Assembly (NCBI GenBank): GCA_012519205.1
Contig: JAAYQR010000019.1
Span: forward strand, 1 to 64,000
Source of the DNA: Candidatus Epulonipiscium sp.
Lineage (GTDB): Bacteria > Bacillota > Clostridia > Lachnospirales > Defluviitaleaceae
Length of the DNA: 64,000 bases
Direction: 5' to 3'
In this document: positions 50,566 through 56,039 of the stretch, piece after piece
How positions within the stretch are numbered: the first letter of the stretch is position 1
Layout of the letters: every line of letters starts with the position of its first letter
Made by a program: the position numbers and the translations under genes
Notes under the pieces: model-generated
Seen by the model: only the letters and a program-made list of their open reading frames with translations
The model's database searches: none
Told to the model about the DNA's origin: nothing

Positions 50566-51009
50566 TCATACCGCATTATGAACGAAGGATACAATGTTTG
50601 CAATAGGAATATCTGTTACGGAGCCTACGGTGTATACTGGATATCCATTCCAACCACCGGCAGTAATAGCACCACTTTCACTAGCAGAAAGAACAGGACC
50701 TAATCCATACATATCTCCGCCCCCATATTCTCCGCCACAACCGCCATATGGAGTATTACCAACACCATAATTCCATCCACCTACATTAAAATCAGTGCAT
50801 GCATTTCCGAGAGCACATCCCGGAGGCGGACCGATTCTAGTAATAAGTCGAACAAATACATTATTAACCGAAAGAATTACTCCAGTGAAACCGGAACCTG
50901 ATTGTCCACCGCTGCTTGTGAAAATTGTTACTGTTTCTCCGATATAATTTGTAAGTAATGCCGCAAAGTTTCCTCCTGCAAATACTCCAGCACCAACACC
51001 ATCTGCCAT
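50566..51009 (-). CDS. Gly-rich coat/exosporium-like protein
   Basis: A 147-aa soluble protein. A hydrophobic N-terminal portion (LLTNYIGETVTIFTSSGG, SGFTGVILSVNNVFVRLITRIG) looks like a small beta-barrel of the kind seen in coat or exosporium proteins with an hfq/Sm-like fold (YIG..VTIFT..G.SG..FTGVI). A Gly/Tyr-rich segment with scattered Cys follows (PPGCALGNACTDFN, GGCGGEYGGGD), and the C-terminus PIANIVSFVHNAV closes the barrel. A strong AGGAGG precedes the ATG. I infer a spore surface role from composition. The precise family is not recognised. Confidence 0.65.
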   Translation of the reverse strand: MADGVGAGVFAGGNFAALLTNYIGETVTIFTSSGGQSGSGFTGVILSVNNVFVRLITRIGPPPGCALGNACTDFNVGGWNYGVGNTPYGGCGGEYGGGDMYGLGPVLSASESGAITAGGWNGYPVYTVGSVTDIPIANIVSFVHNAV

Positions 51010-51119
51010 AAGTATTTCCTCCTTTTTTACGTTAAGATTTTATAGAACATTTTCCTTATATCATATTCAAATAAATAAAAAGTGTGTTTGTTTAAGTTAT
51101 TATAATGGAGGACTTTTTT

Positions 51120-52019
51120 ATGAAAAACAATCTTAAAAGATTTTGCTTATCCATAGGAATTGAGTGTGTAGGGATTGCTTCTTCAGGCCCTTATTATGAT
51201 TTAAAGAAGATTCTTGAAAAGAGAGTAGAAGTGGGATATAATACAGAGTTTGAAAACAAGGAATTACAAAAAAGGATATGTCCATCTCTTACTTTAGAAG
51301 GGGCAAAATCAGTCATAGTTTGTTTGTTCCCGTACTATGTCGGGAATAGGGAAGATGCAAATATATCAAAATATACTTATGGGTTGGATTATCATAAAAT
51401 TGTAGAGGGAAAATTAAAGCAGATTGGAATTTTTCTAGACAATATTATAGAGAATTTTGAATACAAAGCTTATGTGGATTCAGGGCCCTTGGTTGATAGG
51501 TATTTAGCCTATAAGGCAGGTCTTGGTTTTTATGGGGTTAATTCACATTTAATTACAGACAAATATGGCTCCTATGTATTTATAGGATATATTATAAACA
51601 ATTACCCTTTTAAACCTGATGAACCTATGGAAAAGACCTGCATACAATGCAGAAGGTGCATTAAGGCCTGTCCTGGTTCAGCCATTCCTGGAGATTTTAC
51701 GATAAACCCTTTTAAATGTAGATCATATATTTCCCAAAAAAAGGTGGAGCTATCAGAACGGGATAAAGAAATCCTAAAAAAAGACAAACTACTATTTGGT
51801 TGTGATATTTGCCAAGATGTTTGTCCCCATAATAAAAGTATCAGCATGACTAATATGGATGAGTTTAAAGATAATTTATTAACATTCCTTAGCTATGACG
51901 AGATATCAAACATATCAAATAAAGAATTCATGAGAAGATATAAAGACAGAGCCTTTAGCTGGAGAGGAAAGAAAACAATCCTTAGAAACTTTGAAATTAT
52001 AGATAGAAACCCCCATTAA
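51120..52019 (+). CDS. queG: Epoxyqueuosine reductase-like iron-sulfur protein
   Basis: A 299-aa QueG-like protein. QueG reduces epoxyqueuosine to queuosine in tRNA using cobalamin and two [4Fe-4S] clusters. The catalytic Asp is D120 (AYVDSGPLVDRYLAYKAGLG). Cluster cysteines are C174, C177, C180 in CIQCRRC, with C184, C200, and C228, C231, C235 in CDICQDVCPHN. The HEAT-like C-terminal extension of Bacillus QueG is absent, so this is the short form. No other queuosine genes are nearby. The ATG at 51120 follows GGAGG. The hairpin at its stop also serves the ATPase gene coming from the right. Confidence 0.85.
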   Translation: MKNNLKRFCLSIGIECVGIASSGPYYDLKKILEKRVEVGYNTEFENKELQKRICPSLTLEGAKSVIVCLFPYYVGNREDANISKYTYGLDYHKIVEGKLKQIGIFLDNIIENFEYKAYVDSGPLVDRYLAYKAGLGFYGVNSHLITDKYGSYVFIGYIINNYPFKPDEPMEKTCIQCRRCIKACPGSAIPGDFTINPFKCRSYISQKKVELSERDKEILKKDKLLFGCDICQDVCPHNKSISMTNMDEFKDNLLTFLSYDEISNISNKEFMRRYKDRAFSWRGKKTILRNFEIIDRNPH

Positions 52020-52033
52020 TTTATGGGGGTTTC
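52006..52033. terminator. Shared terminator of queG and the ClpE-like gene
   Basis: GAAACCCCCAT (52006-52016) pairs perfectly with ATGGGGGTTTC (52023-52033). Both stop codons lie in or next to the stem. Confidence 0.8.
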
Positions 52034-54340
52034 AAATATCACTTTATTCTCAGACATTTTTATATAAACTGAACTGTTTCCAGTAATAGTCTCTCTAAGA
52101 TATAGTTCGGCAAGTTCATCTTCTATAAGCCTTTGAATCGTTCTTCTAAGGGGTCTTGCACCATACTTAGGATTATAACCTTTTTTAAGAATATAATCCT
52201 TAACTTCATCATCTATTTTAATTGTTATACCCTTTTGCCTTGCTTCAGTTATAATTTCTTTTAACATTAGGTCAATAATTTGTTTTAGCTCTTTTTTACT
52301 TAATTCTGTAAATATTACAATCTCATCAATCCGATTTAAAAATTCAGGACGAAACATTTCTTTTAGTGCATCATGAGTTTTTTCCTCTAATGCCGAGTAA
52401 TTATTTTTCTCAAAACCTATACCGTGCCCTTTTAAGCTGGTACCTGCATTAGAAGTCATAATAAGAATCGCATTTTCAAAATGAACAGTACGTCCTTGGC
52501 TATCTGTAAGCCTTCCATCCTCCAGTATCTGAAGAAGCATATTAAACACATCGGGATGGGCTTTTTCAATTTCATCTAGGAGTATTATGGAATAGGGCTG
52601 TCTTCTTATTTTTTCAGTTAATTGTCCCCCTTCATCATATCCAATGTATCCTGGTGGAGAACCAATAAGCTTAGATACCGTATGTTTTTCCATATACTCT
52701 GACATATCAATTCTGATCAAGGCCTCTTTGCTTCCGAATAATTCTATTGCTAGGGTTTTAACCAATTCAGTTTTTCCGACACCCGTGGGCCCCACAAAGA
52801 TAAAAGAGGAAGGTCTTTGGAGCTTTAAAAACCCTGAACGATTTCTACGTATTGTCCTTGATAGGTTTATAACAGCTTCATTTTGGCCAATAAGTCGTTT
52901 GTGGAGTCTATCTTCTAAGTTTAGAAGTTTCTTTGCTTCCATTTGGGTTATTTTTTGTACGGGAATTTTTGTCCAAGCTTCTATGATAAAGGCTATGTCT
53001 TCTACTGTGATGGAAACCTCATTACTTTCCTTTTCAATTTCTGATATCCTATTTTGAAGTTTACATTCTTCTACTTTATAATCCGCGGCCTTTTCATAAT
53101 CATCTCTTGATGCAGCATCTTCCTTTTTAATTTGGATAGAATTTAATTCTTTCTTTAAAGCCTCAAGCTCTACCAAGCCCTGATTTTTAAGATTAGCTCT
53201 TGAACCAGCTTCATCGATGATATCGATTGCTTTATCAGGGAGAAATCTATCAGTGATATATCTCTTTGACAGTTTAGCAGCTGTTTCAATTACTTCATCA
53301 GATATAGATATATTGTGATACTTCTCATAGTAATCTTTTATTCCCTTAATAATCTCTATGGTTTCTTCTACAGTAGGTTCTTCCACTAAAACCGGTTGAA
53401 AACGCCTTTCAAGGGCCGTGTCTTTTTCGATATATTTTCTATATTCTTCAATTGTAGTAGCGCCGATAACCTGGACTTCACCCTTGGCAAGGGCAGGTTT
53501 TAGTATATTAGCAGCATTCATAGCCCCACCTTCAGCGTTACCAGCCCCTATAATGTTATGGATTTCATCAATAACTAAAATAATATTTCCTGATTCCTTT
53601 GCCTCTTTAATAATAGCTTGCATTCTTCCCTCAAATTGCCCCCTGAATTGGGTTCCGGCAATTATCGAGGTTAAATCAAGAAGATATATCTCCGTATCAT
53701 ATAGCTTTAGTGGAACTTGTTTTTCCTTAATTCGCACAGCCAGCCCCTCAGCAATAGCAGTTTTACCCACCCCGGGTTCCCCTATAAGGATAGGATTGTT
53801 CTTGGCTCGCCGATTAAGGATTTGAATTACCCTATCTATTTCTCTATGACGTCCTATGATTCTATCTACAGCATTGTTTTCTGCTTTTTCAGTCAAGTTA
53901 GTACCATAGGAATCTAAATATTTTCTTTTCTTTCTCTTTTTTTCTTTAACCTTCTTTTCTGCAGTTGCATCAGTATTAGAATTATCTTTGGCTGAGGAAT
54001 TCGCTTTAGGAGAATCTGATGGTTGTACTTCTTCTTTGGGATTTCTTAATCCGGAAAAAGCATTATTAAGGAAACCTAAAAAAGGGTTTTGAGTATCTTC
54101 CATATCACCAAGATTTAATTCACCTATATCTATGTTTTCAAATATACTCCCCATTTGTTCATTAAGATTTTCTAAATCTTCTCCTGATAATCCAGTTTGT
54201 TGTATAATCTGATTTAAGGGACCAATACCTTGTTTTTTTGCACAAGGCATACAAAGACCTGTCATTTCCTGCTTACCATTTATCATATTAGGTATAAAAA
54301 CTACAGCAATATTTTTCTTGCATATAGAACATTTTATCAT
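52016..54340 (-). CDS. ClpE/ClpC-like AAA+ unfoldase with N-terminal zinc finger
   Basis: A 774-aa Hsp100 protein. An N-terminal zinc finger (CSIC at residues 3-6 and CMPC about 30 residues on) replaces the Clp_N repeats, as in ClpE. A charged Ser/Lys linker (about 100-145) follows. The first AAA domain has GEPGVGKTAIAEG and VIDEIHNIIGAG, and the middle region holds a UVR-like DDYEKAADYKVEE and a short coiled coil. The second AAA domain has GPTGVGKTELVK, IDMSEYMEKHTVSKLIGSPPGY and LLDEIEKAHPDVFN. Clp C-terminal sequence NPKYGARPLRR completes it. The start is the ATG at 54340. The GTG 9 nt upstream lies in the ribosome binding site. No CtsR operator is visible upstream. Confidence 0.9.
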   Translation of the reverse strand: MIKCSICKKNIAVVFIPNMINGKQEMTGLCMPCAKKQGIGPLNQIIQQTGLSGEDLENLNEQMGSIFENIDIGELNLGDMEDTQNPFLGFLNNAFSGLRNPKEEVQPSDSPKANSSAKDNSNTDATAEKKVKEKKRKKRKYLDSYGTNLTEKAENNAVDRIIGRHREIDRVIQILNRRAKNNPILIGEPGVGKTAIAEGLAVRIKEKQVPLKLYDTEIYLLDLTSIIAGTQFRGQFEGRMQAIIKEAKESGNIILVIDEIHNIIGAGNAEGGAMNAANILKPALAKGEVQVIGATTIEEYRKYIEKDTALERRFQPVLVEEPTVEETIEIIKGIKDYYEKYHNISISDEVIETAAKLSKRYITDRFLPDKAIDIIDEAGSRANLKNQGLVELEALKKELNSIQIKKEDAASRDDYEKAADYKVEECKLQNRISEIEKESNEVSITVEDIAFIIEAWTKIPVQKITQMEAKKLLNLEDRLHKRLIGQNEAVINLSRTIRRNRSGFLKLQRPSSFIFVGPTGVGKTELVKTLAIELFGSKEALIRIDMSEYMEKHTVSKLIGSPPGYIGYDEGGQLTEKIRRQPYSIILLDEIEKAHPDVFNMLLQILEDGRLTDSQGRTVHFENAILIMTSNAGTSLKGHGIGFEKNNYSALEEKTHDALKEMFRPEFLNRIDEIVIFTELSKKELKQIIDLMLKEIITEARQKGITIKIDDEVKDYILKKGYNPKYGARPLRRTIQRLIEDELAELYLRETITGNSSVYIKMSENKVIFETPIN

Positions 54341-54533
54341 TAATATCACTCCATATTTATTAACTAAAAAACTTATTTAATTAGTATAGCATTTTTCAAG
54401 AAATAAAGGTAGGAGTAAAAATGCATATGAATTATGCAATTAATGCATAAATAGTATAGATTTTTCAATATATATATTGTATCATAATAATGTTCCAAAG
54501 TTTTCCAAAACACTATTACCTTGGGGAGATATA

Positions 54534-56039
54534 ATGGTTATAAATTATAATGAAGTTATTGTGAGTAGTGAACCCGAAAAAAAAATTCTTCAATATATTT
54601 CTAAAATCAGTAATAATACCGTATGGGAAGGGATTGCTGTCCTAAAGGAAGAGCTTAAAATAGATATTGATAATTATGTTAGACATATATATTATCTAGA
54701 TATAGAATTGATGATATTCATCGGAGCATTAGAAATCATAAGTGGGAAAAAGATATGTCAGATATACGCCAAGGCTTTTAGAGCTTCTATTTTAAAACAG
54801 TATGACGGGGAGATTATAAGAGAGAGGATTATAAAGGATTTATGCATAAGACTAAATGTCTCCAGTGATTTTCTAATCAGCGTACTCCATCAATTTTATT
54901 ACTATGCTCAAAGTTTAGAATGGATATTAAATTATAAGAAAAAGGATGATATAAAAAATCCTAAGGAAAAAAAGCACTATCTAGGAGCAATATTTATTGT
55001 AATCTTTGCTGTGATCCTTACAATTAATATATTCCCTAATTATAGAATTCCGACCATGGGCATGGATACAAAATATATTCTAGAAGTTAGGGGTTTGACT
55101 CTTAAATATATGTTGATTTCAACTGCCGGTGAAATTTATGACATTAATGAAAGGATAAAAGAGGAACAATCCCTTTATTATAAATCCTATGGCAGCGAAG
55201 TATACAATCATTATAAATGGATAAAAAACACATATAGTAATATGTCTCAAGATATGAAAAGCCATTTGGCAACTTTGTATAAAAGTGGGACTAATGAAGG
55301 GAAATATATTTATTTGTTAGCAGGTTTAGAAGATGGTGCGGATATAAATCAAATAATCCGTACCATAAAATCAAGCAATATCGAATTAAGAGAAAAGAAG
55401 GCAGCGGAGGAGTTTTATCCTTATTTTTATGAGGAATACTTGAAAGAATATATTAAGATCAATGGGTATAAGTATGAGAGATATGCTTTGGAATTAAATA
55501 ATCAACTCCAGCAAGAAAAGCCAGATATATTAGGGTTTATTGAGGAAACTTCAGGAATTACATACGATAAAAAATACAAACCCATACTTTATTACACAAT
55601 GCGGCCTGGAAATGCATGGGGTTTTACCCATAAAGACCATTACATATCTCTTATCCCGTGCACTGAAAGTGAATATGTAGATTTATTCTATATCCCCTAT
55701 CATGAATATAGTCATGGCATCTTTAAAACGATTACCCATGAAGAAGAATTCAAAAAAATAGCGGATAAGTTAAAAAACAATACAGTATTATATAATTCTT
55801 GGAACAACGGATACTATAATGATTACTATACTTGGGAAGGATGGTGCGAAGATAATTTAGTAGAGGGTTTTGCAATGTATCTGGATTACAAAGCAAGGGA
55901 TAAAAAGCCCAATCCTAAAATATCTATAAGACCCTACGACAAAAGGTACTTTAATTACTTGGTTGAAAATAGATTTAATCCCAGTACAACGAGTTTGAGG
56001 AATATTACTATTAAATTTCTAGAAGAGATAGCAAACTAA
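54534..56039 (+). CDS. Membrane-anchored HExxH metalloprotease-like protein
   Basis: A 501-aa protein I cannot assign to a named family. Residues 1-148 are a cytoplasmic helical domain, one membrane segment is at about 149-167, and about 330 residues lie outside. The zinc motif is H390-E-Y-S-H394, in YIPYHEYSHGIF. A likely third ligand is E444 in NLVEGFAMYLDY, about 50 residues on, as in gluzincins of the DUF2268 type. An NSWNNGYYND segment and W434-E-G-W follow the motif. GGGGAG lies 5 nt before the ATG at 54534. It abuts the convergent gene without any spacer. Confidence 0.75.
   Translation: MVINYNEVIVSSEPEKKILQYISKISNNTVWEGIAVLKEELKIDIDNYVRHIYYLDIELMIFIGALEIISGKKICQIYAKAFRASILKQYDGEIIRERIIKDLCIRLNVSSDFLISVLHQFYYYAQSLEWILNYKKKDDIKNPKEKKHYLGAIFIVIFAVILTINIFPNYRIPTMGMDTKYILEVRGLTLKYMLISTAGEIYDINERIKEEQSLYYKSYGSEVYNHYKWIKNTYSNMSQDMKSHLATLYKSGTNEGKYIYLLAGLEDGADINQIIRTIKSSNIELREKKAAEEFYPYFYEEYLKEYIKINGYKYERYALELNNQLQQEKPDILGFIEETSGITYDKKYKPILYYTMRPGNAWGFTHKDHYISLIPCTESEYVDLFYIPYHEYSHGIFKTITHEEEFKKIADKLKNNTVLYNSWNNGYYNDYYTWEGWCEDNLVEGFAMYLDYKARDKKPNPKISIRPYDKRYFNYLVENRFNPSTTSLRNITIKFLEEIAN

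Follow-up and report, generated by a model that had tools for sequence, protein, structure and literature searches.

The likely closest named relatives of the protein studied here belong to DUF4932 (PF16286), a family described as a putative metalloprotease in the only paper on it that was found (PMC5410138), and the literature search returned no activity data for any family member. DUF4932 proteins are exported (in one of them, L033, the signal ends in a lipobox-like sequence) and carry an HExxH motif and, some 45 residues further on, an [EN]-E-x-[IV]-V block. The gene described here lies in a window of 64,000 nucleotides from Candidatus Epulonipiscium sp., and the predicted layout of its product is similar. 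It differs in having Asp at the position of the DUF4932 Glu, and Glu (E444) in a column where DUF4932 has Arg, and it adds a cytoplasmic domain and a transmembrane anchor. Judging from sequence comparison, we consider it probable that the window protein is exported, stays tethered to the membrane and acts as a zinc peptidase, and that its small, unnamed family sits inside a wider DUF4932-like group. It is ordinary in kind and new in detail, an exported DUF4932-like putative peptidase with a lineage-specific cytoplasmic domain. Several proteins so far called hypothetical, some of them encoded on Paraclostridium bifermentans plasmids, would thereby gain a defined and testable placement.

The original prediction recognised no named family, which is true at curated thresholds. 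Searches of Pfam, NCBIfam, PADLOC, PHROGs and PDB sequences gave no match above chance for the window protein (chance matches only, in the case of the PDB), neither it nor seven relatives reached the Pfam gathering cut-off for DUF4932, and PF16286 found no match in the window genome. Profile comparison, however, picks up a remote kinship with DUF4932.

Gene, predicted membrane topology and domain models

The features of the gene are collected in Table 1. The reading frame opens with ATG at 54534, with GGGGAG just upstream, at the same point as the full-length relative L003, and runs to the stop at 56039.

Table 1. Features of the putative peptidase gene (positions in the window).
Feature	Position	Strand	Basis
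Putative membrane-anchored zinc peptidase gene, 501 aa	54534..56039	+	ORF and orthologs
Cytoplasmic N-terminal helical domain (predicted), residues 1-134	54534..54935	+	AlphaFold model, distribution among relatives
Transmembrane anchor (predicted), residues 149-167	54978..55034	+	Hydropathy 2.58, Lys-rich cytoplasmic flank
Extracytoplasmic metallopeptidase-like domain (predicted), residues 174-501	55053..56036	+	Alignments A3/A5/A6
YYTMRPGNAWGF motif, residues 353-364, before the active-site helix	55590..55625	+	Aligns with RPHGIKL in the A7 family
HEYSH, residues 390-394, with a presumed zinc-binding His pair and catalytic Glu	55701..55715	+	Invariant in nine relatives
E439-D440-N-L-V-E444, candidate third-ligand segment	55848..55865	+	Joint alignment

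A single membrane helix joining the two parts had been predicted, and residues 149-167 are indeed the only convincing one by hydropathy (mean Kyte-Doolittle 2.58, with the runner-up at 1.61). Because the Lys-rich flank KEKKH precedes this helix, the N-terminus is predicted to be inside, and the ectodomain should therefore be outside. A site-2 type intramembrane protease was considered and rejected, since the sole strongly hydrophobic helix lies more than 220 residues ahead of the HExxH, which is not itself in a membrane helix.

The AlphaFold input alignment had three rows. Residues 1-134 were modelled as seven to eight helices (pLDDT 83.9, pTM 0.80), in agreement with the helical cytoplasmic domain first proposed, and Foldseek found no fold match for this model (best E 2.8 in PDB and 1.2 in BFVD). 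The ectodomain model was poor (pLDDT 51). Its strands ahead of the HExxH and its long helix across the third-ligand segment would fit a zincin, though at this pLDDT they prove nothing and the absence of a Foldseek fold match is meaningless.

For zinc, catalysis, ligand identity, topology and substrate, we infer the following arrangement. The N-terminal ~148 residues would stay in the cytoplasm, and one helix would cross the membrane. In the ectodomain of about 330 residues, zinc would be bound by H390 and H394, probably together with D440, a position that is Glu in most relatives, and E391 would serve as catalytic base. Cleavage of proteins or peptides would take place in the wall or on the cell surface. 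The cytoplasmic domain may be an accessory, dispensable module for docking or local control that the enzyme does not need.

The HExxH site and its candidate third ligand

An HExxH appears by chance in 1.5% of shuffles of the window protein, so that the motif alone is weak evidence. Its conservation argues for a real site, as it is invariant in nine relatives that include a lipoprotein form and the Paraclostridium plasmid forms. Across these nine aligned relatives, with identity down to 38%, H390, E391, S393 and H394 do not vary, and the downstream block W-x-x-W-C-E-[ED]-x-L-V-[ED]-G-F is invariant or nearly so. In a joint alignment with the more distant sequences, HExxH with its catalytic Glu was found in 18 of 18. 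Comparison of L002 with L003 gave dN/dS of ~0.13 for the ectodomain and ~0.21 for the N-terminal domain; both domains are kept by purifying selection, the ectodomain more strictly.

The translation bears out HEYSH at 390-394 and E444 within NLVEGFAMY. The role first given to E444, that of the distant Glu of the zinc site, is not supported. On that reading the protein would be a classic gluzincin-type metallopeptidase with E444 as third ligand, and NLVEGFAMY does locally resemble the motifs of M1 (NEGFA) and DUF2268 (EGLA), as in the L041/L042 sequences. However, at the E444 column the Paraclostridium copy L025 has Asp, and DUF4932, L039 and P0003 from Deinococcus have Arg. In addition, the profile of the family had no match to DUF2268 or M1 sequences. 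We therefore regard this alternative as unlikely, and E444 is not a conserved ligand in these alignments. Only the D440 column is acidic in all 18 sequences (Glu in 16, Asp in the window protein and L007), and for this reason D440 is the likeliest third zinc ligand, as far as an alignment of distant sequences can indicate. In the DUF4932 set, the neighbouring E439 column is occupied by Asn, Ser or Ala. Read against the DUF4932 motif N-E-x-[IV]-x-R-A, the window protein has the HExxH, D440 as the acidic residue, E444 in place of Arg and E439 in place of Asn. Of the gluzincin-clan (MA(E)) pattern, an HExxH with a distant Glu ligand, the HExxH is present, and the acidic ligand is likely D440 here and Glu in most relatives. 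This finding corrects the residue to mutate as third ligand.

As candidate families, DUF2268, M1 and M48 were rejected: there was no Pfam match, and hhalign against one member of each scored 13.8-15.7 (E 0.3-0.5). The best single DUF4932 sequence scored 30, compared to 14-16 for these single-sequence controls.

Probable distant relationship to DUF4932

A search of the phylum found one genome, G968 (E 6e-4 for one genome), with two tandem proteins (L019 and L021) that contain HExxH, an RP(H)G motif and an EENIVEA block. One of them gave an hhalign E of 3.5e-6. Together with the Deinococcus plasmid protein P0003 (NZ_CP092188.1) they form the three-sequence alignment A7, which matched A6 with E 7.9e-7. 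This family shares with the window protein HExxH, the RP(H)G motif and an EE-x-x-V-[ER]-A block, and L019 and L021 also share a C-terminal F-x-Y-L block. Identity to the window protein is just 24% in the matched part, and L019 and L021 differ from it in having no evident export signal at the start. A phylum search centred on G968 found nothing, but its stricter limit also missed G968 itself, so this result has little weight.

DUF4932 was taken up as a lead because the motif layout pointed there. A6 matched A8, an alignment of DUF4932 members, weakly (E 8.6e-4, hhalign probability 24%, small alignments); the match was collinear along 182 columns and paired the HE of one with the HE of the other. 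A7 against A8 gave E 1.2e-3. In controls of 80 column shuffles, run with and without the HExxH block and four columns on either side kept in place, the scores beat 80 of 80 shuffles. With that block kept they were 34.4 against a maximum of 30.4, 33.1 against 27.3, and 54.2 against 27.6. No hhalign match was obtained for L039 and some single DUF4932 sequences. It is thus likely that the window family is related to DUF4932, although it falls outside Pfam membership. The comparisons suggest that DUF4932, the window family and the L019 family make up one metallopeptidase group with a common motif besides HExxH.

Distribution, cytoplasmic domain and gene neighbourhood

The gene is present as a single copy in seven of the eight genomes of the window's genome family (f1). 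Outside f1, the 295 genomes searched in the order yielded one more with the gene, and none of the 391 genomes of the class gave a convincing relative. Three Paraclostridium bifermentans plasmids carry relatives with ~40% identity. The family is rare beyond f1 in the genomes sampled. Class-level A3 matches (L014-L017, E 0.001-0.01) were set aside as expected by chance from so many genomes, the one that was read, L015, having no HExxH, and order-level A4 matches (L029-L032) were taken as chance on the same ground. Viral contigs, searched with ectodomain and N-terminal profiles, and phage records contained no relatives.

The Paraclostridium plasmid proteins, annotated as hypothetical (for example WP_247013949.1 and WP_021431905.1), match the window protein over residues 183-498. 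They are transmembrane-anchored but without a cytoplasmic domain, and their gene neighbours are different. The DSM 14991 plasmid copy (L025, 1001-1945) reads NLVDGF where its relatives read NLVEGF, and L023, the copy on CP124691, appears in the annotation as a pair of overlapping ORFs and is possibly broken.

The N-terminal domain is complete in two Candidatus Epulonipiscium MAGs (36-38% identity to the window protein), where it is followed by an Asn/Ser/Tyr-rich cytoplasmic linker far longer than that of the window protein. It is absent from the sister genus g2 (four genomes), whose proteins of 373-390 residues have a short cytoplasmic tail, and from the G014/L012 form, a lipoprotein with the lipobox FFIVGC. 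Anchors thus differ while export is kept, by a transmembrane helix in f1 and Paraclostridium and by a lipobox in G014/L012. Since the tree places the window protein with g2 (97/100), with the Epulonipiscium pair outside, the simplest history has the cytoplasmic domain arising in f1 and disappearing from g2.

This distribution bears on the sensor or regulated-proteolysis role first suggested, in which the cytoplasmic domain would bind a partner and an event outside, or the reverse, would control cleavage. The domain layout and the purifying selection on the cytoplasmic domain are consistent with it. However, the domain is missing from the four g2 genomes and all outgroups, and the tree makes its absence from g2 an independent change inside the family. 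Beside the gene, no sigma/anti-sigma, kinase or comparable regulator partner is conserved. In f1 the gene is flanked by a convergent UppS-like gene and a divergent one for a ClpC-type ATPase whose N-terminus has a four-Cys element, and outside f1 the neighbours differ. On these grounds the idea is unsupported and we judge it improbable. Likewise improbable is that the protein represents a new family of metallopeptidases whose cytoplasmic domain would couple an inside signal to extracellular cleavage and whose third ligand would switch between Asp and Glu. A catalytically inactive relative retained as a binding protein is also a very unlikely reading: it could draw on Asp at the third position, the variable E444 and loss of the gene from one f1 genome (G005), but the catalytic Glu persists throughout the joint alignment.

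A functional link between the putative peptidase and the Clp ATPase or UppS-like gene was considered and finds no support, as the pairing is conserved only inside f1, where the G005 neighbours remain side by side although the protease is missing. At its position there, a 776-bp AT-rich gap (L055, 4944-5719) between the uppS-like and clp genes contains no recognisable protease remnant.

Several neighbouring genes of the window have features of their own. The UppS-family gene (PF01255; 56040-56705, minus strand) is 84% identical to its G005 counterpart and strongly conserved in f1; it is distinct from a second UppS-family gene elsewhere in G005 and is a lineage-specific paralogue. The ClpC-type AAA+ ATPase (52016-54349, minus strand) contains a UVR motif, and its N-terminus has a McsA-like CxxC...CxxC element; the Pfam matches listed for it include no Clp_N domain. 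A 147-aa Gly-rich protein of no Pfam family (50566-51009, minus strand), with a GETVTIFTSSGGQSGSGFTGVILSVNN stretch, is kept at the same place in L002. A diaminopimelate dehydrogenase-type gene (PF16654; 49505-50506, plus strand) and a gene for a QueG-like Fe-S protein (51105-52019, plus strand) also occur in the same order in L002.
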